From the IMG/VR virus record IMGVR_UViG_3300017956_000007, positions 1 to 64,000 of that record: a DNA stretch of 64,000 bases; one strand, given 5' to 3'. Source of the stretch: a virus. Shown here in pieces: positions 4,918 to 59,322 of this stretch (positions are counted from its first letter, which is position 1; each line of letters starts with the position of its first letter). The notes under the pieces are model-generated. The model had not been told where the DNA came from. It saw nothing but the letters and a program-made list of their open reading frames with translations, and ran no database searches. Made by a program: the position numbers and the translations under genes.

Positions 4918-5924
4918 TACCCTGGTCCTACCATAAAATCTATTGGTAATTGATATTTAATTTGAACTTGTTCTTCTATTTCTCGTAGTTCATTTACGGC
5001 ATCATCGAATAATTGTCTACCATCGAGCGTTACACCTCCTGGCAATGAAACTCCTTGGTATTTTATTAGATTTGATCCCCATTGTTTTTTAAATAATGCA
5101 GTAACATATCTTTTTAAAAACATATCGTTATAAATTTTACCATATAAAGACGGATCAATAATTCTATATGCTTCTACAACAATATATTCGCCAATATCTA
5201 TATCGGAAACCCAATCCATATCCAAATATAATCTGCTTTGATGTCTATTGAATCTTATAGGTTTTTTACCAACAAAAATATCATTCAATAATTGTATATG
5301 CTGCATTGACATTTGGTAATTTATGATAGAAGTTGCCGTTAAATATGGCAATTCATTTAAATGAAATTGATATCTAAAGGAAAACATATCACTTGTAGTT
5401 TGTCCCCCTCCAGTATCTTGTATGTCAAAAATACTAATAACTCCCGTTATTGAATCGGTCAATGGAATGTATTTGTTATCAACATCTCCAAACACTACTG
5501 GATTATCAATTGCATCGACAATCGCAGAACTTCCAGATTTTTTACCTATGATAGTTTCACCACTTGAGAAACTAGATGACACATTATTATTTGAAATTCC
5601 AGTACTATCTTTGTGATTTTTGAATGTTATGAAACTTGAATTCGAAGTTGTTAATGTGGCAGAAGCATTCGATGTTTGTCCCTCTATAATTTCACCATTT
5701 GAAAAATCACCTATGACAGTATTAACAGAAACCGTTGATCCTGTTATTTGATGACGGTGATATATTTTTTCAATAGAATCAAAGTGATATTCCTGAAAGT
5801 ATTGTAAACCCTCGTCTATTCTGTCCTCAAGTTGATCATCATCAACATTAATTTCTATGACCGGTTTTCCAAGAGTTCTCAGACAATATTGTTTTAATTC
5901 TTCTCTAGATAATGGTTGCGACAT
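4917..5924 (-). CDS. 13: neck protein gp13
   Basis: Neck protein that joins the packaged head to the tail. The N-terminus (LSREELKQYCLRTLGKPVI, then DDQLEDRIDEGLQYFQEYH) and the C-terminal half (RLYLDMDW, IVVEAYRIIDP, LKRYVTALFKKQWGSNL, DGRQLFDDAVNEL) are typical of marine T4-like gp13. At 335 residues it is close to T4 gp13 (309). Residues 70-140 hold two copies of a short module, GDFSNGEIIEGQTSNASAT and FSSGETIIGKKSGSSAIV, that also occurs in other virion proteins here. Starts with ATG behind GGAAAT and lies directly upstream of gp14, as in T4. Confidence 0.88.
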   Translation of the reverse strand: MSQPLSREELKQYCLRTLGKPVIEINVDDDQLEDRIDEGLQYFQEYHFDSIEKIYHRHQITGSTVSVNTVIGDFSNGEIIEGQTSNASATLTTSNSSFITFKNHKDSTGISNNNVSSSFSSGETIIGKKSGSSAIVDAIDNPVVFGDVDNKYIPLTDSITGVISIFDIQDTGGGQTTSDMFSFRYQFHLNELPYLTATSIINYQMSMQHIQLLNDIFVGKKPIRFNRHQSRLYLDMDWVSDIDIGEYIVVEAYRIIDPSLYGKIYNDMFLKRYVTALFKKQWGSNLIKYQGVSLPGGVTLDGRQLFDDAVNELREIEEQVQIKYQLPIDFMVGPG

Positions 5925-5941
5925 TTATTTCCAATTTTAAT

Positions 5942-8900
5942 TTAAGAAATTGTTGGGTTAAATAAATTTAAAATGGTACCGGCACTATTATAAATTGGAA
6001 TTGCACAATCCACTTGATCTCCGGTCGAAGCTTTTGCTGATAATCTAGCTGATATTTTTACATTTTTAGTAAACTCGGACATACCATCAAATTTTGACTT
6101 ATTTGAAGTTACCCATAAACCAGGTGTTTTTACGTTACCCGTTTCATTTATGACACCATTAGTTCTTATAGTTATTTTTTGACAAGTAATATCACCTGCA
6201 TTGGTTATATTTCCATAACTTGAACCATCGTAACCAAGTAAATTCAGTGATGTGCCTCTGATTCCAGCACCAGATATAGAACCCGTAGTACCTGCTGAAA
6301 GACTGGTACCTGTAATTGCTCCTTGTGCGGTTATATAAGAACTAGATGTTATGTACGAACTTGCAACTATCGAAGTTGCATTCACTCCTTGAAAAGTAGA
6401 TGTTCCACCAGTAGCATTAAAATAAGTGCCCTCAACATAACCAGTTGCACTATAATTACCTGCTACGCTTACCGATTGATAAGTCACAGATGCTGCTCTT
6501 ATATCTCCAGTTACAAATATATCTCCCGATACCGTAAGATCTTGAGTGACGGAGGCATTTCCAGATATGTAAACATTACCGTTCTCATTAGTAGGCCACG
6601 AAACTTTTAATGTACCTCCTGCTATTGAAGATTCACTTCTACTATCAACTGTTAATATTCCAGTTGATTTTAAATTCTTCTTTGTCCATAAATCTCCGTT
6701 GGTAGTTATAGCACCTTCTGAATATGTAGTTCCATCAATAGTTGTACTACTTTTAACATGTAAATTACCGTCCTTAACTATTAACCCGTTTTTTACATAT
6801 AATTTATTTTGGATATAATTATTAGCGGTTGTACTTAATACTTCTAGTTTTCCGTTGACAACTTTAACACCTGTAGAATTAGTTGTATTTCCTGTTGTTA
6901 TAACCAATGAATTTGCAGTTATTTCGCCATCAAAAGTTATATTTCCATTTGCTGTAAGTTTATTTCCTTTGAAAGTAGCATCTTTATTAACTGTTAAAGT
7001 GTCTTTCAATAATGTTTGTTTTTCAACAAAAAGTCTATCATGTATGGTTAAATCTTTTGTAATTGTGGTATTTCCGGTAACATACACATTACCCTCATTG
7101 TTGGCTTTAACTACTGTTAATGTACCGCTTCCTAGTTTATTGACATTATCAGTCCCTGTGCCTATAGTTTCAATGTATTTTTGACTATAAAAATGTAAAT
7201 CAGTTGTTATTTGTTTACCGGCACTTATACTTCCTGTTACAGTTAAATCATCATCACCAATAATATCTCCCTGAGATACTCTGAGTGTTCCATTAATTAT
7301 ATCAACATCACCTCGACCAATTGTTAAAGTTCCTGCAATGTAATTATTAACCAGAGGATTATCGACCCATAAATATCCTCTAGGTTCTAATTCCTCATGG
7401 CCTGCATAAGTATGACCAACCGCATTTGGATTTTCTCCTCTTACGATTAAATTACGATTTATAAACAAATCGTCACTACCAATTATGTCACCTTCAGATA
7501 CATTTATATTACCTATTACTGTAGCGTCTTGTTCAACTCTTAAATTCCTAACATTTAAATCAGTATTTTGCATATCGAAATCACCGGAACCCTTGATATT
7601 TCCTGATATAGTCAAATCACCAAATATTTCAGTATTACCTTTATTATTCAATCTGCCTACTATCCAAGTATTACCGTATTTAACTCCAGTATCCGTATAT
7701 TCTCCAGTCACAGTTAATGCAACACTTTCCAAAACATCATCTTTTATATTAACCAAAGAAACAGCATTTTGAGAATATACCAAACCAGAAATATTTACAT
7801 TTGCCGTAACATCTGTATTACTTCCATTAAACTTTACATTACCGCCTACAGTTAAATTTCCTCTGGAAAATGTGTTAGAACTAACACTATCAATATATAA
7901 ATTTGCTCCAAAAAATCTAGTATTTCCGTTAAAATTAGAAGTTCCTTTTACATGCGTATTTGATGTAGATGAGCTTACAATTACATTCTGTCCCGTGTGA
8001 TATAGTTTACCATCGAATGTTACTGTTTTATTAGTAGAATCAAAACGAACATCTCCATCAAAAAAAGAATCTGTTTTTACATGTAAATCTTTATCGACCG
8101 TAAGATGGTCTTTCATCAAAACATTGCTTTTAAAATAAGCAAGAGGATTTACTGTAAAAGGTCCAGTGTAATCAAATAATGCATTGCCACTTACTACAAA
8201 ATCACCATCAAAAGTAACTCCTCCTCTCGCATCTAATGGACCTTGTACGAGTAAAGATGTCTCAAAAGTTGTAGGATGTCCAAATGTAAATTGACCATCC
8301 GCTGGATTAGGCCCAGTATCTGTAAATGTTACACTACCATTTGCCAAAGAAATATCACCATCAATTGTCATATCACCATTTGCCGTAACATGTTTATCAA
8401 TATGAACATTATGTTTAATTAAAACATTATTGGCAACTGTCATTTTTCCTGGAAATAATAAACTATTGTTATATTGATTGAATTCTATACCCCAATATTC
8501 TGGTCTACGATTTTTTGCTTCATTTCCAGGACCTGCATCCCATATAATTTGACCCATTCCTAAATAACTGTATCCTTGTCTTGTTCCTCCTGGATAGGTG
8601 GCATATAATGTTGTACCTGATGTGCTGTCTGTAGCATTTTCTCCGATTCCAAAAATAGCATATCCATCAGTTCCATGTGCATCCATCAAAAATATAGTAG
8701 TATTTCCATTCTGATGAACTACATTTGAATTAATTCTCATCTCATTTCCATTGAAAATCGAATTTGCCTCAACACCTAAAGTTCCTCCCACATGCAATGT
8801 ATGCCATGCTGTACCATCTCCAATTACTTCAATGACTTCGTTGGGTGCCACTGCGGTTGGTTCGTTGGTCTGTCTTTTAATTAGAATGGTTTCACCATCT

Positions 8901-17715: not shown

Positions 17716-19491
17716 TTAAAACTCCAGAATTATCTTATAATTTTCAACCTGATCGGTAACTCTTTGAACTTTTTTCTTATTCTCTATGTAAAGTATATCA
17801 CCGGAATAAGGTTTCATATCTCTATCTTTAAAAACATTAATTTTTGCCGTAGCGCCAGATTTGTTTCCTGTTATTACAGAATTTACTGAAAAATCACCTA
17901 AAATCGAATTAACTCTCATAGTAGATCTGCTTGTAAAATCAACTAAAAAACCATTAGCTGTACTAGATTCTAGTGTTTCTCCGACATATATTTTTTCATC
18001 TATTAAAAATCTACCTGATAATTCTATTAATTCTAATGTTATCATCTGACTAGCATACGCAGAAGTATAAAATTCATTGTTGGAATTTAATGGATCTCGT
18101 AAAATGCCAAATTGTCTATAATCATTAGTTGTGGTAAAATATCCAAATTCATTGCTCGTTAATGTGGTATCAATCATTAATCTGTTACCATTTAACTCTT
18201 CAATAGCATTTTTTCCGTGCCCTCCAACTGGCCCTATTATTATTTTCGCAGTTGCGCCTTGACCATGCTGACTATTAGCACTAATAATAGCGGTCCCTCT
18301 ACGATATGAATATCCTTTATTTGATATCAGTGTACTTGTGATACCATGTGTTGCATTTCCTAAAGTTCTTGCGGTAGCACCAACACCATCTCCTTTTACA
18401 GTCAAACTGGGTGAAATTATGTATCCGGAAGAAGTATTAGGTGTTACAACAAAAGGAGTTTGTGTTATAATTCTACGAGATTGAGAATCATATCTAATTA
18501 TCTTAGACTGTTCACCTTGTCCTGCATTATTTGATATGTAAATGGTTGATCCGACATATATGTTATCATTTTGATTATCTGCCGATGAAGATAAAAACAT
18601 CGCTGTCGAATTCAATACAGATGTGAACCTCCCTTCACTAAATACATATGTCGAAATAGAATCTGCTGTCGATTTTGCCAATGCGCCAGATGTCAATCCT
18701 TTTATGGTTTCAGTATTTGAAAATTTTTCTCCGGGATAACTAACTATAATTTCTGTATTACCTGTCTCAAAATATTCTAGTGTTGCATAAATATCATTGA
18801 CACTAGAATATAAAGTTTCTCCAACTATAAAATCTTGTGTATCACCATCATTATTAACTGGTTCAGTTTCTAAAAAAACTTTAAAATATCCATTAGAAGT
18901 TTTTGAGATAATATCTATCGCACCATCAACGGCAGAATCTTCAACATCTCTTTGATTTCCAACAACTGATTGTACTGTTACTTTTTGAACAGGAATAAAA
19001 TTATCGTCAGAAAATTTTAAAATATCTTGTGGTTTTATGGTGTACATGTATTTCCACTTATAACCATCGGATGTTTCTATAACATTCAATCCTGTACCTG
19101 TTGGCTTAACAGTTGAGAAGCCATTCGATAAATTATTCTGTAAGCATTTATAGACATTATTGTCATCTGTCACTACATAAAAATTTTTATCAAACATATC
19201 ATTCACATCGTGAGTGTATGCAAAATAATCAGAACTAAATGACCATTCTATTCTTGGTATAATATGTTTAACATCTCCAGGTTTAATTTTTTTTGCAGAT
19301 AACATATCATCCCAATATTTGAAATGAGTATTTGCTATCGATTGTGTAGGGCCAGGAGGATTTTCTTCATTATCCCATTCATCAGTTTTACCGATAAAAA
19401 GATACATATTAGTCGGATCTATTTCCGATAATGATTCAACAATTTGTTCCGCAATATGAATTTTAAAATTATTTGTAATTAATCTAGGCAT
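17716..19491 (-). CDS. 8: baseplate wedge protein gp8
   Basis: Baseplate wedge subunit. The N-terminal 170 residues match marine gp8: NNFKIHIAEQIVESLSEID, MYLFIGKTDEWDNE, KHIIPRIEWSF, FYVVTDDNNVYKCL and YKWKYMYTIKP. The protein is 591 residues against 334 in T4. The extra length is beta modules, with GYSYRRGTAIISA, GRFLIDEKIYVGE and GDFSVNSVITGNKSGATAKI near the C-terminus. It sits between the gp7-slot protein and the giant DUF4815 protein, as gp8 does in T4, with 3 bases to the next gene. Confidence 0.85.
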   Translation of the reverse strand: MPRLITNNFKIHIAEQIVESLSEIDPTNMYLFIGKTDEWDNEENPPGPTQSIANTHFKYWDDMLSAKKIKPGDVKHIIPRIEWSFSSDYFAYTHDVNDMFDKNFYVVTDDNNVYKCLQNNLSNGFSTVKPTGTGLNVIETSDGYKWKYMYTIKPQDILKFSDDNFIPVQKVTVQSVVGNQRDVEDSAVDGAIDIISKTSNGYFKVFLETEPVNNDGDTQDFIVGETLYSSVNDIYATLEYFETGNTEIIVSYPGEKFSNTETIKGLTSGALAKSTADSISTYVFSEGRFTSVLNSTAMFLSSSADNQNDNIYVGSTIYISNNAGQGEQSKIIRYDSQSRRIITQTPFVVTPNTSSGYIISPSLTVKGDGVGATARTLGNATHGITSTLISNKGYSYRRGTAIISANSQHGQGATAKIIIGPVGGHGKNAIEELNGNRLMIDTTLTSNEFGYFTTTNDYRQFGILRDPLNSNNEFYTSAYASQMITLELIELSGRFLIDEKIYVGETLESSTANGFLVDFTSRSTMRVNSILGDFSVNSVITGNKSGATAKINVFKDRDMKPYSGDILYIENKKKVQRVTDQVENYKIILEF

Positions 19492-19512
19492 ATTAGTATT
19501 TATTAATTTTAA

Positions 19513-22500
19513 TTAAGATTTAATTTCTATGGTTATCTCTACATCATTAAAAGGAGTTTTTGGTTCAAAAAGTAATTTTCCTTCTAATGATGTAGTGCCA
19601 CTGTATAAAAAGTTTTGAGTACCTATACCATCTTCTAATAATAATTCTCCAGTATCATTAATCGATGACACGACATGCATATGATTATTTGAACCGTCAT
19701 AAGGTAAATTCAGATGTAATATGTCTCCTTTTTCTTCAAGATCCAAATTTCTTGTCGATTGCAATCTAAATGTTTGATTATTGCTACCATTACCTAACGG
19801 AACACTTAAAACTAATTCTTGATTCTGTATTGTAGTATCTTCGGTTATCATTCTATCAAAAATGCTATTTTCAAGTAATAAATCAGAATCATCATTCTCT
19901 AATTTTATAACACTAAAATCAATTATATCAACAATTTTTGCAATTTTATCATCTTTGGAAGAAAGAGAAATGATATCGTTTACCGTTAAATCTTTATGGA
20001 ATCTAGTATTTATACCTTTTAGCGTGGTTATTCCATCATTTAAACCATTCGCAGTTGTATATCCTCTTACTGTTTGTTCCAATATCAAAAATGATTCAAA
20101 TTGTTTTTTATCATAATTTGTTTCAGAAGGATTTAAACTTTCTAAAGAAAAATATACAGTGCTTGTATCATCTTCTAAAATAATAGGAACATTATTGTAA
20201 AAATTTTCCGTTATTAAATTAAAACTACCTTCTGCCTCAGAATCAACTCTAGTTTTAGTTGATACACAAGATGAATTTATAATTGATACTATTTCTACTT
20301 CTTGGTCATTGTTAGTTAAAGTTATAATATCTCCGATTTCAAAATCATTTTGGAAATCAGAAGATAAAACATTATATAAATTTGCCGTGGAAAAATCAGG
20401 AATTATATCATCATCAATATTGAAACGAACAGAAATTTCAAAAGTTTTTTGATCTATAATATTTTCTATCAAATATTCATTATCATAAAACCTAAATTTC
20501 TGTCCTCCAAAAACAGTATATAATGGGGAATTTTGAATTAAAACCGTATCATAGTTTTTTAAATTGTGATTTATTTCTGTTTCAATTTTTATAGTTCGCA
20601 AAGAATAATCCAAATTTTTCACTTTTGGTAATGGATAATTATAACTATTGGAAAACATCAAATTAGAAGTATAATTTATTATTCCTGCGGTTATATTATT
20701 TGTATAGACATTAGTGTTTAAATCAAATCCAGTATTACTATTTAAGGTGTGAGTTAATAATTGTATATTATTATCTTGATCAACAGTTATTTTACTGATT
20801 ATAGATCTATACTCTTTACCATCGGATAATCTTTGATAGAGTGGATCATTTAATTTAAATTGATTAAAATTACTTTCTCGATAAAAATAAGTTTCTAGTC
20901 CTATTAAAGAGTATCCGTCTTCCATGACCAAATTATCATAATTTTCTAAAACAAATAAATTTTGTTTGGTATATGCAACAGGATTACTCAGTGTTAATAA
21001 ACTAATTGTATTTTGACTATCCGTAGTTATTTTGCCATAATAATTATGTTCTAACTTTAATTCCCCAAAAGATGTTTTGAATTTTTGCTCATTATCAATT
21101 ATAATGCTGTTATTAGCATCATAATCATCATTCAATTTTTTAATTGTACTCGTAGCAGATATTATATTATTTCCGCCCTGAACTCTAACTAAAGTACCCG
21201 ATCCATAATCACTAACATTTTTTCTTACCAAATAATTTATTTGATGATTAGGTTCAAAATAGGATTCGGCAATAATTTTTTTGACATCTTGATTTTCTAA
21301 TAATATTCCTGATCCATCTTCAAATGTTAAATAATTATCAAAACTAAAATTAATATCATCAGTTGGTATCACATACTCACCAAACATTTTTGTGCCTGCA
21401 GGATGTATTAATTTTTTCAATAGTTGTTCATATTCCGCAAACTGTATTTTATTTTTCAATACATACGAAAAATCTTGATAATAATAACCATCATATATTT
21501 TTTTGTTATAACTTAAAAAACCATTTTCATCAAGATACTTGCCTGAGGTATTTGCTATAGTTCCTATATTTGCAGTCAATATAGCATTACCATCTCCTAT
21601 TAAATTTGCAGAAACAATTGGATTCGTAGTATAACCTGCACCAGGATTAGTTATCTCTATTTCTCCAATTGCACCTGCATCATTTTCCTTCGCAGAACCA
21701 ACAATTCTAGCATTTTCCCCTTTATCTAAATTTATTGAGAAAACAGATCCGGAATTTGTCACATAAGCTTGTGCTCCACTATTATATCCAACAATAAAAT
21801 CATTTTCTGAAAAATCTACTGTAGAAATCAAAAATCTATCAGAAACATCATGATTATATGGTATTGTAAATTTTACGTAAATACCTTCATGAAAAAATAA
21901 ACTTCCTGTGACTGGTGTTGTAGCATTCTCATCTATTTCGTATTGAAATGCGTAATCATTTAAAACAACAATTTGATTTTCTCCATTATAAGAATTATCA
22001 ACTGAACCAACTACATTTACATTAATTCCTGTTGTTAAACCATGCTTGTATAGGGTTGTAGCAATTGCTTTATTGCCATCTTTTTCTATCGATTCTATAG
22101 GAAAATCTAGTCTTTGCCAATCGGCAGTCATCGATATTGGATCTGAGATGTAATCTATGTCGGTAAGATTATCCGCTATATCAATGTTTTTATCATTTGC
22201 AACTAGTCCTCTTCTAATTTTGAATTGATTAGGACCTGTTCCTTTGCCTCCTTCAGTCACCAATAAATCATATATGGTTGGATTACTAGGATTGATGTAA
22301 CTAGAATTATTAACCGTCAAGTCATTAGATCCTAATCCGTAAGTTCCCAAATATTCAGAATTTTTCATTCGCATTCTGAAGGGACTAAAATCTAACTTTT
22401 CCCCGTCATATACTAACCCTAAAAATGTACCTATTTTACTGCCGCCATTGCTGGTAATCGAATATATTCTTTCTCCTGGCGTGAAAGAACCTGTTATAGA

Positions 22501-48292: not shown

Positions 48293-48933
48293 GATAATTC
48301 CTTGACCTCATCACAAATTCCATATTTCAATGCCTCATTTGAAGATAACCAAACATCGTGCGGAGGCAATAAAAATTTACGTATTTCATCATCATCAATG
48401 CCTGTACACTTTCTATAATGATTTAACATTCTTTCGGTTGTTAAATCATATTCTTTTTGTACAGCAAAAAGTTCATGCTCTTTACCAAAAGAACCCCAAG
48501 AATATTGATGAGATAAAATACTTGTATTCGGTGTTAATAGTCGTCTTCCTTTTTTCCCAGCCATAAAAATTGAAAGTGCGGCACTTCCTATAATACCAAG
48601 ACCGACTGTATGAATAGGAATAGAAGACCCTCTCATAACGTCAATCAAAGCAAAACCAGCCGTCATATCTCCTCCATGAGAATTTATGCACAATGTCAAA
48701 AATTCTGGTCTTGACGTTTTTTTCATATTATTGAGTAATACCCATTCAATCGCATGTAAAACCGAACCATTATAGATATCATCAAATAAAAAATAATATC
48801 CTCTATTTTCCAAAGATGCGCCATCATCCTCAACATTTTCTGATGGTGCATTTGCTATAAATTTCTCAGCAACTAACGTTGCAAATTCTGGATTTACTAA
48901 TGATTGTGCTATCTTATCTTCATTTATTTTCAT
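48289..48933 (-). CDS. clpP: ClpP-like serine protease
   Basis: 214-residue ClpP-family peptidase with the complete catalytic triad. The nucleophile region is GLGIIGSAALSIFMAG with Ser117 placed like E. coli Ser97, followed by GKKGRR. The His is in LSHQYSWG (His142), and the Asp in HDVWLSSNEALKYGICD (Asp193). The strand CINSHGGD is the substrate-binding Gly-rich loop. No propeptide beyond the usual helix is evident. It heads the block with gp33, gp59 and gp32, so it is probably not a prohead protease but acts in the cytoplasm with host ClpA/X or alone. Its end overlaps the 63-residue gene by four bases. Confidence 0.93.
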   Translation of the reverse strand: MKINEDKIAQSLVNPEFATLVAEKFIANAPSENVEDDGASLENRGYYFLFDDIYNGSVLHAIEWVLLNNMKKTSRPEFLTLCINSHGGDMTAGFALIDVMRGSSIPIHTVGLGIIGSAALSIFMAGKKGRRLLTPNTSILSHQYSWGSFGKEHELFAVQKEYDLTTERMLNHYRKCTGIDDDEIRKFLLPPHDVWLSSNEALKYGICDEVKELS

Positions 48934-51900
48934 ATTTTACCATTTGAATAATTTTATCAATTCCATCAAAAACCATCTCAGTAGAGATATTTTTTGTACA
49001 CTCAAACATTCTATCGGTTCCTTTATGATCCGGACACCAAAGCCAATCGCCTGGATCGAACTTATGTCTATTATAGCAACTATTGCAAGTTTTGTCATTA
49101 AAAATCCTAACACATTTTGTGGAAAATTCTGAATTAGGATTACTAAACCCAGAAATTAATAAAACGTGCTTATTCATAGACCATGCTAACCATGACAATC
49201 CTGACCCTAATCCTATGAAAAACTCAGATTTATTTATAGTCGCAATTGTCTGATTTAAAGTTCTATTATGTCTCGGTATAATACCATCTGGACAATAGTT
49301 AAAATATTCACCCTGTCCAAAAGAAGGATGTTTGTCAATACAAACCACATCATACCCCTTAGTCTTTACATATTCAACAACTTTATTCCAAGCACCAGGA
49401 TTATTCCAATATTTTGCCTGAGCAGTTGATTGCGTAGCAATTGCAACATAAGGTTTATTCAATTCGTATTCTTTTTCGTACACTGTAATTTTTGATGGTT
49501 TTTCCTTCCAATCCTTAAATCCTAAAATACTTGCGCACAATGTTTGCAATGGAACATCTTTACAATCGACTGGAGACAAATCACATTTTTCAAAAAATCC
49601 TATTCTATATTGATGGTCAAAATCTTTAAATCCTGAATTAGGTTTTTCAAATTTTATTTCAGGATATTCATTTTCGAATAATTCATTGAAAAAAGTGCTA
49701 CATATGACTTTACATTTATGTTTTTTTCTAAATGCTTCGACCGGTTCCATCCAAGCAATATTATCGCCTAATGCGGAAGAATCTAGCCAAATGAAAACTT
49801 TTTTATTTTCCATTTTCATATCATACACATGCACTAATTCTTCAGTTTTTTCATCAAAAATTTCAATTTTCCAAGGTATAAAATAAGATAATGTTGATGC
49901 GGCCCAACAATTGTTTCCTATTTTAGTTTGAAAATGTATATAATCAGTTTCTGAATCTTTGAAATTAATTTTAAAGTTTTTATCTACATTACCTTTTATA
50001 GACACATAAGGATTCGGGTTAACTGTTATATTATAATAAGATTTTTTTCTATCGTGTCTGTATTTACTAAAATCATGTTCACTAGCATTTTTCAAATCAT
50101 TTTGATATATGCTTATTAATCTTTCTCCCATATCCAATGGTATAGTTTGTTTCAATTCTTTTGCTCGGTAATAATATTTTTCTAAATTTAAAAAAATGTT
50201 ATCCCAATCTCTTTCCATAGCAAATTTTCTAGCATCTTTTGATGACTGGTCTAAATCATTCAAATGATGTAAAATACCCTCAACTATTGTATCCACACTT
50301 CTATCGCATTGATAAAAACCTGGTATTTTCATTTCATCTTGTAATGTTCCAACAACTGGCAATCCACATGCCATTCCTTCTAGTACACCTAAACAAGGTT
50401 GTCCAGTTTCCATTGATGCCGGATGTACAATAATATCTTGTTCGGATAAAATATCTCTTAGATCTTTTTTGAAAACATTGCCTAATAGATTTATTTCTAT
50501 GTCTTTTTTGCAATCGTTGTATATCTGATAAAAAACTTTATTGTAATCGTCATGTATAGAATCCGCTCCGACTATTGTTATAGGAAAGCCTAATTTATGG
50601 GCAGCCAAAATCGCTAAATGAAATCCTTTTCTATCGTCTCCCCCTCCAACACAAACCAATCTATTGCTTCTTTTTTTAGTATAATTGGGATAATAGAAAT
50701 TAGTATCAACTCCATGATGTAAATGAAATAATTTATCCTGAGCATCAAAATATGATATGAATTTATTGATAGGGGTTAAACTTAGAACAGAATTTTCAAT
50801 TGTAGATTTTATTTGGTTATATGAATAACTATATTTTTCCTGTAATCCTACCCACGCATCATGAACTGTATGAATAAACGGCACAAATTTATGTTTTAGT
50901 GAATCATTAAAATTAACCATATGATTATGAAAAACATCGTAATTTTCCAATTCCGTTTGTGTAATTTCACTTAACCACATCAATTTTACGTTATGTCCTC
51001 TTCTCTTACCGGCATTGATATATTGACCAACAACTTCCTCAACACCTCCATAACCTTTAGGAGGTATTTCTATACCGCATCCTGGATTTATTTGAATTAT
51101 ATTTAATTTTTCAAAATTATTATCATGAATTATACGTTCAAAGTTTTCGACAGGTAAATTTTCAATTTCGCTTTTTTTCTCAGATTCTGGTTCACTAATT
51201 ACCTCAACTATTTTCTTAATTTCTCCGTTTTTCGATCTTGTAATTAATGTGAACCTATTGTCTTTATTATACCAGTTAAAATGATAATTTAAATCCGTCA
51301 TCATACTAATAACATCAGATATTATGTCAATACCTGTTCTATTATTTTTCATTAAATGAGAATTATCACAAAAAATTACAATCTCACAGTTAAAACTCAA
51401 GTTATTTTCAATAGATTCTATAAATTTTGATATTTCTTCTACAGTATCTTCAAGATTTATTTTAATGAAAAAATAATCAACGTTTTTAACTCCATCGAAA
51501 AAAACATTGTGATCAAAAAATAATTTTTTCAATTTTTCTTTTTTAAGAATATCATATTTAAAATTTAAGAAACTAATATTTTTAGCTTGAATTTCATGAT
51601 TTAGATATGATATGTAAGTTGATTCCGCTGAATCATATATATCATCAAAATATTTTAAATTTCTAGGATATTCTAAAATAAAATTTTTTCTTCTTTCTTT
51701 AGCATCAATTGCTAATTGTGCCTCTCCTCTTGTATTCCAATTTCTGTAATTCTCGGAATCATTATGGTCTCTTGCCAAATAAGTAGTTCTTGGAATTGTA
51801 ATCCATTTACCTCTCTCTTCCATCATTAATAACCACTGTCCATCATTAGAAGAACATGCTTCTCCGTCTTTATGTACAGGAAATTTAATGCCTGGCAAAT

Positions 51901-52423
51901 TTCTAAAAATTCTTAAATATCCAAAAATATTTGTTCTATTTGGCCATAATTTTTCAAATCCTTCAAGAAAAGAATCATTATCGGTTGTCATAAAAACGTT
52001 ATCTTTGAAATTCGACAAAAAATCCTGATTAGATTTTATAGTAAAATTATCATAGTATTTGTTCGCATTAAAATGCATCAAAACACTCTCTGGAAACAAA
52101 TTAAAATAATAATTTATACGTTTTAACGTATTAGGCAATATAAAATCATCAGAATCAATGTGACAAACTATATCTCCAGTAGCGTGTGTCTGGGGATTCC
52201 ACCATATTTCTTTTTTATATTTTGGTTGTATAATTTTTATTCTATCATCTCTGAGACTGATATCATTGATAATTTCCAAAGTTTTATCATTAGAAAAATC
52301 ATCTGATATTAACCATTCCCAATTATCATAATTTTGACATAATATAGATTCTGCGGTTTCTCGTATATATTTTTCAGCATTAAAACATGAAGTTATTAAT
52401 GACAATTTCAATTCATCATACAT
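48920..52423 (-). CDS. three-domain glycosyltransferase: GT2, GT4, TibC-like heptosyltransferase
   Basis: A 1167-residue fusion of three glycosyltransferases. Residues 5-270: GT2, with SLITSCFNAEKYIRETAESI, WEWLISDDFSND and the DSDD motif. Residues 435-775: GT4, with PPKGYGGVEEVVGQYINAG, VCVGGGDDRKGFHLAI and the E-x7-E-like METGQPCLGVLEGMACGLP. Residues 780-1160: GT9-like, with FIWLDSSALGDNIAWMEPV, CKVICSTFFNELFE, GLGSGLSWLAW and four cysteines at about 1113, 1116, 1130 and 1142 (C-x2-C-x13-C-x11-C). That end matches the autotransporter heptosyltransferase family (TibC), which needs a Cys4 metal site and transfers heptose to Ser of proteins. Start chosen at the ATG at 52423, behind AAAAGG; a TTG precedes it. 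Overlaps clpP by 14 bases. Substrate unknown. Confidence 0.85.
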   Translation of the reverse strand: MYDELKLSLITSCFNAEKYIRETAESILCQNYDNWEWLISDDFSNDKTLEIINDISLRDDRIKIIQPKYKKEIWWNPQTHATGDIVCHIDSDDFILPNTLKRINYYFNLFPESVLMHFNANKYYDNFTIKSNQDFLSNFKDNVFMTTDNDSFLEGFEKLWPNRTNIFGYLRIFRNLPGIKFPVHKDGEACSSNDGQWLLMMEERGKWITIPRTTYLARDHNDSENYRNWNTRGEAQLAIDAKERRKNFILEYPRNLKYFDDIYDSAESTYISYLNHEIQAKNISFLNFKYDILKKEKLKKLFFDHNVFFDGVKNVDYFFIKINLEDTVEEISKFIESIENNLSFNCEIVIFCDNSHLMKNNRTGIDIISDVISMMTDLNYHFNWYNKDNRFTLITRSKNGEIKKIVEVISEPESEKKSEIENLPVENFERIIHDNNFEKLNIIQINPGCGIEIPPKGYGGVEEVVGQYINAGKRRGHNVKLMWLSEITQTELENYDVFHNHMVNFNDSLKHKFVPFIHTVHDAWVGLQEKYSYSYNQIKSTIENSVLSLTPINKFISYFDAQDKLFHLHHGVDTNFYYPNYTKKRSNRLVCVGGGDDRKGFHLAILAAHKLGFPITIVGADSIHDDYNKVFYQIYNDCKKDIEINLLGNVFKKDLRDILSEQDIIVHPASMETGQPCLGVLEGMACGLPVVGTLQDEMKIPGFYQCDRSVDTIVEGILHHLNDLDQSSKDARKFAMERDWDNIFLNLEKYYYRAKELKQTIPLDMGERLISIYQNDLKNASEHDFSKYRHDRKKSYYNITVNPNPYVSIKGNVDKNFKINFKDSETDYIHFQTKIGNNCWAASTLSYFIPWKIEIFDEKTEELVHVYDMKMENKKVFIWLDSSALGDNIAWMEPVEAFRKKHKCKVICSTFFNELFENEYPEIKFEKPNSGFKDFDHQYRIGFFEKCDLSPVDCKDVPLQTLCASILGFKDWKEKPSKITVYEKEYELNKPYVAIATQSTAQAKYWNNPGAWNKVVEYVKTKGYDVVCIDKHPSFGQGEYFNYCPDGIIPRHNRTLNQTIATINKSEFFIGLGSGLSWLAWSMNKHVLLISGFSNPNSEFSTKCVRIFNDKTCNSCYNRHKFDPGDWLWCPDHKGTDRMFECTKNISTEMVFDGIDKIIQMVKYENK

Positions 52424-52426
52424 CAA

Positions 52427-53434
52427 TTACCTTTTAAAATAAATTGTAGTTGTTTTTTTAATATTATTGACTAATGTTTGATCATTTAAATCAAAAGTTT
52501 TTATCAACTCATCATTCATAAAAATTTCTATCAATTGACCTTTATTAAATTTAACTAGATTATAAAAACCTTTCATAAAAAATGAATCCGATACTATTTG
52601 ATTATCTACAACTATTTTCATTTTCATATCAATAAAATGATTTAAATGAAATATATAATCTTCTTCATTATCACCTATATAAAGTGCCACCCAAGGTTTT
52701 GTTTCTTCTATGTGCATCCTATCTTGTTCAAATTGTATTCGATTCAAATTAGGAACAAAATCGATTAATTCCACATTTGAATTTTTTTCATCATTGTATT
52801 TTGTCAATCCCAAAACATAAGCAAAAAACTCCTCACCTGGTAAGAATTGATACTTCAAAGTTATTTCTTTTTGAACTTCTAAATCCAAATACTTCATAAA
52901 GCGTTCATACATATAATCTACGTTTCCGGACATCAATCTTGTAGTAACTTGCATTTTGCCGTGAGTGTCGGAATTGTCTTCACTGGACCAATAATAAAAA
53001 ACACCATCTAATTTTTTAGATAATATCTTATATTCATTCATAATCAATTCATGTGGACTTTTAATAAGACCATCATAATCCATGATATGAATAATTTTTT
53101 TTCTTAAAATTTTTGCATAATTAATACCCAAAGTTAATAATCTGTAAACCGCAAAAGTTGTATTGTGACCATGAAATTGTTTTGTTGATAAATCAAACCC
53201 ATCTGTGTAATACGTTATATAACCTAAATATTCTGGATCTTTTAACACAATATTGTCTTTATCATAAACAAAATAATCAACTTTTTCCTGAATTTCTTTT
53301 GACACCGGTGTATGGGTAGTTAATATTATTTCATAATTAAAATATTTTATATTATTAATCAACTCTAAACAACATTTTATTCTCTCAGGAGTTGAAAGAT
53401 GGGCATGAATTAATACAATAGAATCAGAGGACAT
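52427..53434 (-). CDS. glycosyltransferase-like protein with DxD motif
   Basis: 335 residues from the ATG at 53434. The N-terminal part (SIVLIHAHLSTPERIKCCLE, then YEIILTTHTP) and the MDYDG motif at about residue 119 fit a GT-A-type fold with a DxD metal site. The last 70 residues are beta (VVDNQIVSDSFFMKG ... VKFNKGQLIEIFMNDELI) and may be a small carbohydrate- or lectin-like domain. No firm family. I start at the second ATG because GGAG lies 9 bases upstream; the first ATG at 53449 has no room for a ribosome site. It lies between two fused glycosyltransferases and shares their direction. Confidence 0.7.
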   Translation of the reverse strand: MSSDSIVLIHAHLSTPERIKCCLELINNIKYFNYEIILTTHTPVSKEIQEKVDYFVYDKDNIVLKDPEYLGYITYYTDGFDLSTKQFHGHNTTFAVYRLLTLGINYAKILRKKIIHIMDYDGLIKSPHELIMNEYKILSKKLDGVFYYWSSEDNSDTHGKMQVTTRLMSGNVDYMYERFMKYLDLEVQKEITLKYQFLPGEEFFAYVLGLTKYNDEKNSNVELIDFVPNLNRIQFEQDRMHIEETKPWVALYIGDNEEDYIFHLNHFIDMKMKIVVDNQIVSDSFFMKGFYNLVKFNKGQLIEIFMNDELIKTFDLNDQTLVNNIKKTTTIYFKR

Positions 53435-56099
53435 ATGTGATGTCTCCATCCTTTAATAATGAAGTTCCATCTTTAAATGATTTATCTAGATATGAATTAC
53501 CGGAACATTGTATTGAGTATGGGTTTTTTGTGATACCTCCAACCATTTCATTTAATACATTATTATTTAACCACAAATCATATGTGTCCCATCCTGTTTT
53601 TTCAAATTTATTTAAAAAATATTCTCTACAATTTGCAGGAATTAAATAACAATGCGCTTCTGACATTCTGTTTGTCACATCAAAATATTTATTTCGTTTT
53701 TGATAATGCCATTCAACAATCCTTTTACCAAAATTCATATATTTTAAATCAAATTCCATTAAATCATCAAATCTATCAGTTATTTCTTTATAAACTTCAA
53801 AAATTGGTTTAATAAAAATTGCATCACATTCACAAAATAAAACCGCATCTACCTCATCATTCAAATGCTCTAACATTGCCTTATAATGTGCCAAATAATT
53901 ACCGTAATGGGCAGGAGTTAATTTATAATGTCCGGGTTCCATTTGAACATCATCTGGTCTGGCACAACTCTCTTTAGGAGGCATGTCAGAATATTTTTTG
54001 TTAATCATTTGAACATATTTCCATCCAGAATATTCAGCTAATTTTGTCAAATGTTCTATCGATTTTTTTTCACGTTCACCTTCAATGTCAACTAACATGT
54101 GTACTATTTTAATTTTAGGTACTCTAGATGCCCATAGGTTTCCTAATCCTCCATCAACAATTTCTTTATCAAATTTAACATCATATCCTAATTTTTTTAA
54201 CCTATCAATCAATTTACTGGATCTTAAAATTCTAGATTCTAAAGAATTATCATTATTGAAAAAATCATGCACTTCCATTGTGATTTTTCGTATGCGATGC
54301 TTCAACATATGATCGGAAATGGTAGGCATAATATTCCATTCTGCCCCTTCACAATCTAATTTTAACACATCTATTCTATCAACATCATTATTTTTCATGA
54401 ATGTGTCAAAATTTATAGTTCTAACTTCTTCAATTTTTTTCTTTCCTAAAGTAGTTGGATTTTCTTCAGAAGTATTAAAACTATCATAAAAAGTATTCAC
54501 TGCCGAAGAACCTAAGATTTTAAATTCTGAAGTTCCATTTTTATCGGACAATGCCATGTTAAATTTCTTGACTTGATCATAACCTTTTAAATTTTCACAC
54601 AATATTTCAAATGTTTTTTTTGCCGGCTCAAATGTGAAAATTTTTGAGGCTCCTTTACTCAAACAATATAGGTCAAAAAGACCATAATGACCACCAACAT
54701 CTAAAACAACATCACCTTGCAATATATTTACGTATTTGTAACATTCTTGATAAAAAACTTCATATAATGTAAACCAAGATGCAGGATCATCTTGAATACC
54801 CTTTATATTTACATCAACATCATTGATCTTAATATCATCAATTTGATTATCAAAATCAAATGTTTTCTCATATAAAATATGATGCTCATCCATTAAATTG
54901 CCATCAGTTAAACTTGAAAAATAGTCACCAGGAGCATCATAAATTTTTAGATTAATTCCTCCCAGAATTTTTTGAGAACAATTAGGTTGAACCCAAAGAT
55001 TAGGACTAAAAATTTTTGATCTGTAAACTAATAAATTAGTTTTTGTATCAAACAAACAAACCAATTTATTTTCAAGACATTTAAAATAATCTCCAGTGGA
55101 GATTGATATTTTAGTATCATCTTCTAATTTACATGAAATAAAGTTTTCGGTGATGTTCAATTTTCTCAAAATTTTTAATTTATTTACCTCAAAATTATCA
55201 TTAGTCAAATATGTTACCTTATCATCTAACTTATTCAAATAAGAATCTAACTTATATACAATAGTAGGCATTTTCCAACTTAATGCTTCTTTTATCGCTA
55301 AAGGATTTGTTTCCTTATCATGTACATTGCCCCTAGATGTGAATAAAAATAAATCCATACAGGAATAAAAATTATCAACATCGGATCTTTCACCCCATAT
55401 TTTACAATTATCAGGAATGTCACTCATCAATGGTTCCCAATATGATTTAAAATTAGGTGCCATATTTCCGACAAAATGAAATTCTATAGGAAATTGTCTT
55501 AGACTTTTTGCATATTCTATAATTTCTGCCTGATTTTTTCTAGGTGTAAATAGACCTACATTTAAAACATGATACTTTTCAGGATCTAAATTTAATTGCT
55601 TCAAACCTTCTATTCTATCACGTTTATCTTTTATAGGAACTGGATATTCTATTACAGAACTTGGAATTTTTAAGGAAGAAAAATTATGTACCTGATTGTC
55701 ACTACAAAATAAAAATCTATCAGGCAAAAATACTTTATTTGAAGGTTCGAAAGATGAATCGTGAGATGTTTCGAAAATTAAATATTTTCTTTCTGTATTG
55801 TATATTTTTTTAGAAATATCTTGACTCATGAAAAATTCAGGCATTTCCTCAAAATGAATAATATCAGGTTGAATTTTTTCTATAATTTGAAAAATTTCTT
55901 CCTTTTCCTCTCCAAGAGTAAAAACTTTATCATTTAATAAATTAATTATTTTGTTTTTTTGTACTCTGTAAATTCCGTAGTCGTTATATTCTATGACATA
56001 AATATTATAAATATTTTTCAAAAATTCTATTTTTTTTAATAGATACTGAGGAGCTCCTCCAGTTGACAAATGAGGAGTAATGTACAATATATTTTTCAT
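53424..56099 (-). CDS. three-domain fusion: GT4, FkbM methyltransferase, GT25-like
   Basis: An 891-residue fusion. Residues 1-320: GT4, with ILYITPHLSTGGAPQYLLKK, HVLNVGLFTPRKNQ and ETNPLAIKEALSWKMPTI. About 330-440: a beta region. About 445-640: FkbM-type SAM methyltransferase, with VLDVGGHYGLFDLYCLSKGA, FTFEPAKKTFEIL and VLKLDCEGAEWNIM. About 650-891: GT25-like, with ESCARPDDVQMEPGHYKLTP, HYGNYLAHYKAMLEHL, ECDAIFIKP and a YDLWLNNNV end. The ATG at 56099 has AAAGGTGG 5 bases upstream. First gene of the leftward part of the modification island. It may build and methylate one glycan. Which acceptor it uses is not visible. Confidence 0.88.
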   Translation of the reverse strand: MKNILYITPHLSTGGAPQYLLKKIEFLKNIYNIYVIEYNDYGIYRVQKNKIINLLNDKVFTLGEEKEEIFQIIEKIQPDIIHFEEMPEFFMSQDISKKIYNTERKYLIFETSHDSSFEPSNKVFLPDRFLFCSDNQVHNFSSLKIPSSVIEYPVPIKDKRDRIEGLKQLNLDPEKYHVLNVGLFTPRKNQAEIIEYAKSLRQFPIEFHFVGNMAPNFKSYWEPLMSDIPDNCKIWGERSDVDNFYSCMDLFLFTSRGNVHDKETNPLAIKEALSWKMPTIVYKLDSYLNKLDDKVTYLTNDNFEVNKLKILRKLNITENFISCKLEDDTKISISTGDYFKCLENKLVCLFDTKTNLLVYRSKIFSPNLWVQPNCSQKILGGINLKIYDAPGDYFSSLTDGNLMDEHHILYEKTFDFDNQIDDIKINDVDVNIKGIQDDPASWFTLYEVFYQECYKYVNILQGDVVLDVGGHYGLFDLYCLSKGASKIFTFEPAKKTFEILCENLKGYDQVKKFNMALSDKNGTSEFKILGSSAVNTFYDSFNTSEENPTTLGKKKIEEVRTINFDTFMKNNDVDRIDVLKLDCEGAEWNIMPTISDHMLKHRIRKITMEVHDFFNNDNSLESRILRSSKLIDRLKKLGYDVKFDKEIVDGGLGNLWASRVPKIKIVHMLVDIEGEREKKSIEHLTKLAEYSGWKYVQMINKKYSDMPPKESCARPDDVQMEPGHYKLTPAHYGNYLAHYKAMLEHLNDEVDAVLFCECDAIFIKPIFEVYKEITDRFDDLMEFDLKYMNFGKRIVEWHYQKRNKYFDVTNRMSEAHCYLIPANCREYFLNKFEKTGWDTYDLWLNNNVLNEMVGGITKNPYSIQCSGNSYLDKSFKDGTSLLKDGDITYVL

Positions 56100-56155: not shown

Positions 56156-56185
56156 TTAATAATTTGTCAATGAAAAAGGATTTTG

Positions 56186-57484
56186 ATGCCGAGACCTTTA
56201 GTATATAAAGAAAATACTAGTGGAACTGAATTTGGTCTATATGAACTTACCGATAGCCAATTAGAACTACTATCATATCTAGTTAGAGCTAGATATGCGG
56301 AAAAATTAGCAGATATCAGTAGTACAACCAGTGGAATAAGAGGACAAATCTATCTCAAAACATTTTCAAATTCGGCCCCTAGACGAGGAACAACATCGGA
56401 CTATTTTTCGGGGAGTTTTAGAGACTCTAGAAGAGATTATGCTTTATCAGGAAATTTGTCTGCCTCTGACGATAGACTTGGGTCTGATTTATTTAGTGGA
56501 CCATCGTCAGCAGCACAACTAACTGTAGAAGATGTGCCTGGTGCAACATTAACCGATAATAAACTGATTTCTAATTTTGGTCCTGCACCCTCTGCTGTAC
56601 CAAGTTATACTACTGGAGGATACACATTTACACCAAGAAGTTATGACAGTTATATGTTATATCAAAGAAGCGCACAAGAATTAACGCCTTCTGATGCAGA
56701 TACAAATGAAAATGGGTTTTTAATTTATACATCAAGAAGTCTTAAACCTGCAGGGAAAGATAGATCTGTCATAACAGAATTACTCTCAGATTGTTACACC
56801 CAAATGAAAACGGGAGATGGAGTTGGAACATATTATGTTGATAAGAGTACAGCAACAAAACCTGGGGGACAAACAAATGGAACCTTCGTAAACATGGGAA
56901 CATTTTTTATCGATACAAGATCACAAGTCAGTAGTGTAACAACAACTTCCATGACTATTGATGCGGATGGATACCCTAGAGGTAAAAACTATGGTTCTGT
57001 TGTAGAACAGCACAATTTACCTAATATGTCATATGCTTGGGGTGTTGTTGTTACATATAATTATTGGGTAAAAACAGAAGATACTGCTTTTGATGTTTCG
57101 GGGGGAACAAAACAATTTAGTAATTTAATGTTTTTAAAAAATGATGGTCATAAATTATTAAGAAAAGATAGAACTTCAACTTCTGCCCCAACAAGTACTT
57201 CTGATTTGAAGACTAAATATGGAGTATTTATGGATATGATAGATAAAGTAATAATTCCTCAATTTGCTAACGGATCTGATTTACCAACTTATTACAAAAC
57301 AAATAATAATCCTCCATCCCCTGCTTCGAAAATAAGAGGAACTATAGAAGATACATATTATGCAGGAACAAATACTTATTTGTACAGATCAACTTCAGGA
57401 TTAACATATAAGAGACTTGATATTCCAAAAATAGACAACAACAATGTCTTTACAACAACTATGTATTGGTATATTAATAATTAA
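56186..57484 (+). CDS. virion structural protein, first copy of a duplicated module
   Basis: 432 residues from the ATG at 56186, which has AAGGA 5 bases upstream; a TTG lies directly before it. The N-terminal helix LTDSQLELLSYLVRARYAEKL and the later DGVGTYYVD, GTFVNMGTFFIDTR and YNYWVKTED strands are typical of marine T4-like virion proteins. The next structural gene (58291-59322) has the matching pieces MSDAELDILSYVVRKKYAQLL, DGVGSYHFG and GTYVNMGMIYQDTT, so the two are paralogues. The C-terminus ends in IEDTYYAGTNTYLYRSTSG and a YWYINN strand. It may be a neck- or tail-attached protein. Confidence 0.75.
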   Translation: MPRPLVYKENTSGTEFGLYELTDSQLELLSYLVRARYAEKLADISSTTSGIRGQIYLKTFSNSAPRRGTTSDYFSGSFRDSRRDYALSGNLSASDDRLGSDLFSGPSSAAQLTVEDVPGATLTDNKLISNFGPAPSAVPSYTTGGYTFTPRSYDSYMLYQRSAQELTPSDADTNENGFLIYTSRSLKPAGKDRSVITELLSDCYTQMKTGDGVGTYYVDKSTATKPGGQTNGTFVNMGTFFIDTRSQVSSVTTTSMTIDADGYPRGKNYGSVVEQHNLPNMSYAWGVVVTYNYWVKTEDTAFDVSGGTKQFSNLMFLKNDGHKLLRKDRTSTSAPTSTSDLKTKYGVFMDMIDKVIIPQFANGSDLPTYYKTNNNPPSPASKIRGTIEDTYYAGTNTYLYRSTSGLTYKRLDIPKIDNNNVFTTTMYWYINN

Positions 57485-58290: not shown

Positions 58291-59322
58291 ATGGCAACAA
58301 ATAGACCTTTAAGATTTGATGAAACGGTCAAATCATTTAGACAAATGAGTGATGCAGAATTAGATATTTTGAGTTATGTTGTAAGAAAAAAATATGCACA
58401 ATTATTGAGTAGCGGTACCGCTACCATTGGAGGAAAAATTTCTCCGGGCACATCTGCTTCTAATTATTCCTCATTAGGATCAGTAACAGATACAAAAACC
58501 TTACAATATACTGCTACTAACGCAGACAGTCCAACTGGTGGTGCAGATAACATATTTCCAACAACATTAAATTCATCATATCATCAAGAAACTGAAACGA
58601 TTTATAATTATAGACAATATATACCTTCAATCAATTTATCCTCATCAACACTTAATTCTTACAGTTATCTTGTTTATGATCAAAATACAAAAACTTTTAA
58701 AATTGAAGGTGACATTTCCAATATATTCGACACTATCGTAAGTGATTGTGTGAACAAAATACATGATCCTAACAGTGATGGTGTCGGATCATATCATTTT
58801 GGTTTATCCTCTCCAACGACAGGAACATACGTAAATATGGGAATGATATATCAAGATACGACATATTGGAATAGTACAGTACAATTTAATCATTATATTA
58901 AAACGGCTGCCGATAATGAAAACGATATACTAAACGATGCCAGTGCATATAAATATATATCAAGATACATAGGAATTGTTGATGGCAGTGTTAAAATATC
59001 AGAAATACCAATAAATGATATCACAGAAAATATAGTAGTTGATATACTAGAAAAAATATTGGAAAAAAGATTTCCAAAATACACATTAACAAGAGTAGGA
59101 AGCACAGATTCAACAACAACTGCTACCACAACAATGGCAGGCTACACCTCAAATAATTTTGGTTTTTTACATGAAAGATTTGTATTTTCTTCATATACCG
59201 TAGTATCCACTTCTGGTGTATCAGGAGGAACTTACACAGCAAACTATCAACCAGATAACAATAGTTATAGATATAATGTATGGGCATTGACTGCCAATGG
59301 TTATAATACAACTGATTTATAA
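58291..59322 (+). CDS. virion structural protein, second copy of the duplicated module
   Basis: 343-residue paralogue of the 56186 gene, sharing the N-terminal helix, the DGVGSYHFG motif and GTYVNMG followed by a D-T-x-Y strand. Between them the sequences differ in length and content: this copy lacks the first copy's residues 60-130 and has its own ISRYIGIVDGSVKISEIP region and a C-terminal Ser/Thr/Gly-rich part. Divergence is old. Start ATG with AAAGAAT upstream. Confidence 0.75.
   Translation: MATNRPLRFDETVKSFRQMSDAELDILSYVVRKKYAQLLSSGTATIGGKISPGTSASNYSSLGSVTDTKTLQYTATNADSPTGGADNIFPTTLNSSYHQETETIYNYRQYIPSINLSSSTLNSYSYLVYDQNTKTFKIEGDISNIFDTIVSDCVNKIHDPNSDGVGSYHFGLSSPTTGTYVNMGMIYQDTTYWNSTVQFNHYIKTAADNENDILNDASAYKYISRYIGIVDGSVKISEIPINDITENIVVDILEKILEKRFPKYTLTRVGSTDSTTTATTTMAGYTSNNFGFLHERFVFSSYTVVSTSGVSGGTYTANYQPDNNSYRYNVWALTANGYNTTDL

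Follow-up and report, generated by a model that had tools for sequence, protein, structure and literature searches.

The window analysed here comprises positions 1 to 64,000 (64,000 nucleotides) of the IMG/VR virus record IMGVR_UViG_3300017956_000007, an 84,465-bp and probably incomplete contig of a marine T4-like phage. A single gene on its minus strand, at 48920-52423, encodes a three-domain glycosyltransferase whose C-terminal domain is a TibC-type glycosyltransferase, a family assignment for which profile searches and a predicted fold provide strong evidence. We give an even chance to the reading that this gene forms part of a phage-encoded assembly line, which O-heptosylates Ser/Thr residues of virion tail proteins and then extends the glycan, and for which we infer both the donor and the acceptor.

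Domain architecture and family membership

The open reading frame extends over 48920-52426 on the minus strand, and its ATG start at 52423 yields a protein of 1167 residues, organized as follows.

48920-52423, minus strand: three-domain glycosyltransferase gene (GT2 + GT4 + TibC-type GT9-like), 1167 residues (open reading frame, Pfam, NCBIfam)
52016-52408, minus strand: GT2 domain, residues 6-136, with a DSDD motif within VCHIDSDDF (PF00535)
50159-51103, minus strand: GT4-like (GT-B) domain, about residues 441-755 (PF00534/PF13692 and GT4 chains in PDB)
48950-50041, minus strand: TibC-type O-heptosyltransferase-like domain, residues 795-1158, with N-terminal beta-barrel (TIGR04414, predicted model, TM score to TibC)
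48998-49087, minus strand: predicted four-cysteine iron finger, C1113/C1116/C1130/C1142 (alignment to TibC C339/C342/C358/C370)

The sequence-only reading had proposed that one gene joins GT2, GT4 and GT9-like domains, ending in a TibC-like heptosyltransferase with a Cys4 site, and this layout is borne out by Pfam matches above the gathering scores for all three: PF00535 at residues 8-136 (E 5e-18), PF00534/PF13692 at 583-695 and PF01075 at 984-1097. Residues 491-693 are also matched by GT4 chains in a PDB sequence search, and the match to TibC_1st lies below the Pfam gathering score. The C-terminal motifs on which that reading relied, DSSALGDNIAWM, CKVICSTFF and C1113-x2-C1116-x13-C1130-x11-C1142, can all be read in the translation. 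Viral relatives at 51-100% identity carry the same GT2 + GT4 + TibC-type fusion.

The NCBIfam model of autotransporter O-heptosyltransferases, TIGR04414, matches the protein with 323.9 bits (E = 1.3e-96) against a curated cut-off of 200 bits, over model positions 27-374 of 374, and the PDB sequence of TibC (4RAP/4RB4) matches residues 819-1158 (E = 1.5e-64). An AlphaFold2 model of the domain (pLDDT 95.5, pTM 0.91) was built from an alignment of 64 homologues, all of which match TIGR04414 at E <= 1e-30; three GenBank phage rows were left out of the alignment, and the full-length model (mean pLDDT 66.7, pTM 0.40) was not used. The predicted domain has the TibC fold, with the N-terminal beta-barrel and the GT-B core. 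When it was compared with the PDB by Foldseek, places 1-21 were all occupied by TibC chains (TM 0.79-0.84, about 380 columns), followed by WaaF (TM 0.52) and then WaaC (about 0.43). The domain is thus set apart from generic GT9, as the sequence-only reading had expected. The GT9 lipopolysaccharide (LPS) heptosyltransferases WaaC and WaaF are distant GT-B relatives (TM 0.42-0.52) with a much weaker sequence match, and the beta-barrel, thumb and iron finger of TibC are additions to their fold (PMC4358343).

A glycosyltransferase of a T4-like phage might instead modify phage DNA, as the T4 glucosyltransferases act on hypermodified bases, a use which is frequent among phage glycosyltransferases (PMC12619734). 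The top match, however, is a protein O-heptosyltransferase and not a DNA glucosyltransferase, and no base-modification gene was recognised beside the gene, so that this role appears very improbable.

Active site, thumb and iron finger

In TibC, Asp110 is the catalytic base, and Thr226, Lys230 and Trp305 are donor residues (Yao et al. 2014, PMC4358343); their equivalents in the window protein are D887, T1000, K1004 and W1078. Residues C1113, C1116, C1130 and C1142 align one-to-one with the iron ligands Cys339/342/358/370 (PMC4358343), in agreement with the Cys4 site claimed from sequence, and are also present in the viral relatives; the equivalent of TibC Phe368 is kept in the window protein and these relatives as well. 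The catalytic, donor and cysteine positions are nearly invariant in a set of 92 phage, bacterial and archaeal domains: Asp is kept in 91, Lys in 91, Trp in 92 and each Cys in 90-91. The four-cysteine iron finger thus appears intact, and we infer the convergence of its ligands from the alignment. The catalytic features suggest an enzyme that works like a protein O-heptosyltransferase.

Other positions speak against a simple transfer of TibC's properties. Arg286, which contacts adenine N1 and whose replacement by Ala leaves little or no activity, and the thumb tip F265/V266, which is required for the active dodecamer and at either residue of which Asp breaks it, are reported to be conserved within the TibC family (PMC4358343). 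The window protein has T1059 in place of the former, an Arg being found there in only 24 of the 92 relatives, and E1039-Y1040 in place of the latter; the stereoselectivity position Pro300 is occupied by G1073. Because Arg286 and the thumb tip are replaced, neither the donor nucleotide nor the quaternary state can be carried over from TibC, and both nucleotide choice and dodecamer state may differ. ADP-heptose is likewise an uncertain donor, as the adenine-contacting Arg is a Thr. Since these family-conserved features differ, the domain is best filed, on its sequence, as a TibC-like variant rather than as a proven bacterial autotransporter heptosyltransferase (BAHT).

With the BAHT enzymes TibC and AAH (TIGR04414; PDB 4RAP, 4RB4) the window enzyme shares the full-length domain match, the fold, the catalytic Asp, the donor Thr/Lys/Trp and the four-cysteine finger, yet it is encoded by a phage, stands C-terminal to GT2 and GT4 domains in a fusion and has no adjacent autotransporter. 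The substrate gene often, but not always, adjoins BAHT genes.

Distribution and phylogeny

Relatives of the TibC-type domain are encoded by at least 588 IMG/VR stretches. Among GenBank phages, 4 of 50,697 records match, namely Microcystis phage Mel-JY01 and three huge-phage assemblies, and no PHROG matches the domain. At least 22 contigs of GTDB genomes carry it, a lower bound since the search patterns were phage-led. In a midpoint-rooted tree, from which AAH itself was left out, TibC and Negativicutes form a separate group (100/100) against the other 89 rows, and the window protein lies outside it. The window protein belongs to a supported clade of 18 rows, comprising 17 viral rows (contigs or window) and one locus, L105, and the complete genes of this clade are long glycosyltransferase fusions of 1137-1438 residues. 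Elsewhere the domain occurs alone (about 385 residues) or in fusions of about 700 and 1200-1300 residues.

L105 is filed as a Chloroflexi metagenome-assembled genome and has the same fusion (1144 residues) inside the window's phage clade; it is probably a misbinned phage contig. Two Negativicutes loci, L118 and L119, each have two tandem TibC-type genes, and the second copy in L118 is without the Asp110 and Lys230 equivalents, which suggests an inactive partner. In Mel-JY01 (PP395634, 4750-8430) the product named 'methyltransferase FkbM' in GenBank also contains a TibC-type domain, so that its annotation is incomplete.

The sugar donor

Behind the domain gene, one freshwater clade has an HldE-like nucleotidyltransferase gene at +1 (13 loci) and an HldE-like kinase gene at +2 (10 loci). 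The best solved relative of the kinase is HldA (heptose-7-phosphate kinase), and those of the nucleotidyltransferase are ethanolamine-phosphate and glycerol-3-phosphate cytidylyltransferases. An HldE-C-like gene occurs in 10 of 50 domain-bearing records, none above the cut-off, and GmhA is found above its cut-off in one domain-carrying huge phage (636 kb). The HldE-like and GmhA genes support a nucleotide-heptose donor in those phages, whichever nucleotide it carries. Several results count against the proposed assembly line: the best NCBIfam model for the nucleotidyltransferase, the heptose-1-phosphate adenylyltransferase domain, scores 103 bits against a cut-off of 181.5, the best for the kinase, heptose-7-phosphate kinase, 102 bits against 345, and the 84-kb window record, probably incomplete, has no match to TIGR02199 or TIGR00441, the two heptose-pathway families searched. 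These searches gave no HldE or GmhA gene of the window record's own. Split HldE-like kinase and nucleotidyltransferase genes (L077, 11438-12190, and L080, 11056-11445) stand directly behind a TibC-type gene.

A TibC-type protein glycosyltransferase using a donor other than ADP-heptose would be compatible with a virion target. The rarity of Arg286 among the relatives and the Gly at Pro300 fit such an enzyme, as do the resemblance of the HldE-C-like gene to glycerol-3-phosphate cytidylyltransferases and the only cultured host, Microcystis, a cyanobacterium; cyanobacterial LPS is often without heptose. The retention of the Trp305, Thr226, Lys230 and Asp110 equivalents and the kinase's relationship to heptose-7-phosphate kinase argue the other way, and we regard a different donor as possible but doubtful.

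Gene neighbourhood and the target

Besides the fusion gene, the following features of the cassette and its surroundings bear on the target.

53424-56099, minus strand: GT4 + FkbM methyltransferase fusion, 891 residues, first cassette gene (Pfam, NCBIfam)
52427-53449, minus strand: 340-residue protein of the same gene run, no family match (BLAST-clusters with the neighbouring glycosyltransferase group)
56183-57484, plus strand: divergent Ser/Thr-rich (23%) protein beside the cassette, candidate acceptor (composition)
58291-59322, plus strand: second member of the 56183-57484 cluster, Ser+Thr 24.5%, candidate acceptor (composition)

The GT4-FkbM protein cluster occurs upstream in 74 compared loci, and the Ser/Thr-rich cluster is found again close to the cassette in 17. 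Its second member in the window has the highest Ser+Thr content among the proteins measured, and no match among GenBank phages. The neighbours of the fusion gene are GT4-FkbM, ClpP-like, gp59-like and gp32-like proteins and the two unnamed Ser/Thr-rich proteins, with no autotransporter adjacent. The record is rich in tail genes, and its T4-like genes include gp32, a gp59-like loader, baseplate proteins and a VrlC-like protein. Genes for tail sheath and tube come after the domain gene in one set of freshwater relatives.

The cassette could alternatively alter the host surface during infection, either LPS/O-chain or an outer-membrane protein, and thereby block superinfection or change a receptor, a role that has been proposed for pelagimyophage glycosyltransferases. 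The closest isolates by the baseplate gene gp6 are the Pelagibacter phages Mosig and HTVC008M (40% identity), and the substrate of TibC is itself a bacterial surface protein (PMC4358343). In the part of the pelagimyophage study drawn on here (PMC7029224), cassettes with glycosyltransferase, rfaE and radical-SAM genes, many near tail fibres, are read as O-chain or LPS modification; they belong to the same broad phage group and likewise lie near tail genes, and no TibC-type enzyme is named in that part. Against a host-surface role, the TibC-type family, known to act on protein Ser, is conserved in phages that differ widely from one another, and virion genes are often its neighbours; within the cassette no gene of flippase type was recognised, and no adhesin adjoins it in the window. 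Modification of the host seems unlikely. Taken across phages, the neighbourhoods favour virion proteins as the target, although both targets named by the sequence-only reading, the phage's own fibre proteins or a host surface protein, remain unproven.

Further along the record (L021, record 64001-84000), several genes between 1564 and 17714 form a run of radical-SAM type, two recognised by Pfam and the others by eye from their cysteine motifs. An aminotransferase fragment accompanies them at 19180-19965, and comparable radical-SAM cassettes have been reported from pelagimyophages (PMC7029224). Behind TctA (PF01970, E 8e-92), at 4475-6921, comes what reads by eye as a TctC-like periplasmic binding protein; together they make up a tripartite tricarboxylate transporter pair, here carried by a phage.

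Candidate acceptors and the (G-T/S-S)n repeat

The fetched flanks of 33 of 120 loci contain a gene of at least 200 residues in which half or more are Ser/Thr/Gly/Asn. Many of these encode (G-T/S-S)n proteins of 1,000-3,196 residues, in several lineages. The repeat is present in 17 of 33 domain-bearing records, and 16 of 41 records selected only for the repeat also carry the TibC-type domain. In a gp6-anchored marine control both were absent (0/19 each). The pooled association is 20/44 vs 2/47 (p = 4e-6), between sets that differ in length and lineage. The distance between repeat and domain within records is mixed, ranging from some 2 kb to 25 kb and beyond.

Part of the evidence detracts from a link between domain and repeat. 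Among 39 records of a sheath-anchored control, a biased one since its query came from domain-bearing loci, 11 have the domain, 5 the repeat and 3 both, leaving 8 with the domain and no repeat. Neither the association within this set (p = 0.125) nor a length-matched comparison (8/20 vs 1/12, p = 0.10) is significant, and the window record has no (GTSGSS)n gene. Statistical proof is accordingly not claimed, and the association is suggestive only. No repeat period emerged when the window proteins were examined by autocorrelation.

Giant (GTSGSSGTSG)n genes of 2,000-3,200 codons were seen in L048 (11499-21089), L051 (11438-20791), L104 (11755-17931) and LR756501, and a 735-kb phage has >1,000 exact repeat matches. 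In Mel-JY01, a (GTSGSSGTDG)n frame (L023, 2-3052) that stays open for at least 1016 codons lies two genes upstream of the gene with the TibC-type domain. As O-glycosylation acceptors, the (G-T/S-S)n fibre-like proteins are plausible, and fibre glycosylation is the leading but unproven reading.

Proposed function and implications

In the proposed assembly line, the first sugar would be a heptose supplied in nucleotide-activated form, as ADP-heptose or something closely related, which the TibC-type domain would place on Ser/Thr of a phage structural protein from the tail/fibre region. Lengthening and O-methylation of the chain would then fall to the GT2/GT4 domains together with the upstream GT4-FkbM protein, and glycosylated virion appendages would result. 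A viral polypeptide that joins sugar transfer with further pathway steps has a counterpart in A64R of PBCV-1, which fuses a glycosyltransferase to a methyltransferase and has been linked to the glycans of the capsid (PMC4691112), although its domains are unrelated and its virus eukaryotic, so that it serves as an analogy only. In mycobacteriophage virions, both the capsid and the tail tube are glycosylated (Freeman et al. 2023, cited in PMC12619734); these are different phages, and the likeness drawn here is that of the virion glycans.

Among the papers searched, none was found that links O-heptosyltransferases with phage enzymes. TibC-type heptosyltransferases are known as modifiers of bacterial virulence adhesins, and here their catalytic module, unusual iron finger included, turns up on hundreds of contigs from uncultured phages, where the phage copies are mostly unnamed, having no PHROG and, in the sole isolate, an FkbM label. 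More tentatively, and at somewhat less than even confidence, these copies may belong to a large class of systems, so far undescribed, by which phages O-glycosylate proteins. Such systems would hyperglycosylate tail appendages, among them giant fibres of the (Gly-Thr/Ser-Ser)n type with up to 3,000 residues, often with heptose-activation genes and chain-extending glycosyltransferases of their own. Should virion proteins prove to be the target, glycosylated phage tails would be far commoner than the handful of cases now known, which would bear on adsorption, immune recognition and the evolution of glycoproteins, and if such a class exists, many environmental phages would have a sugar-coated tail.

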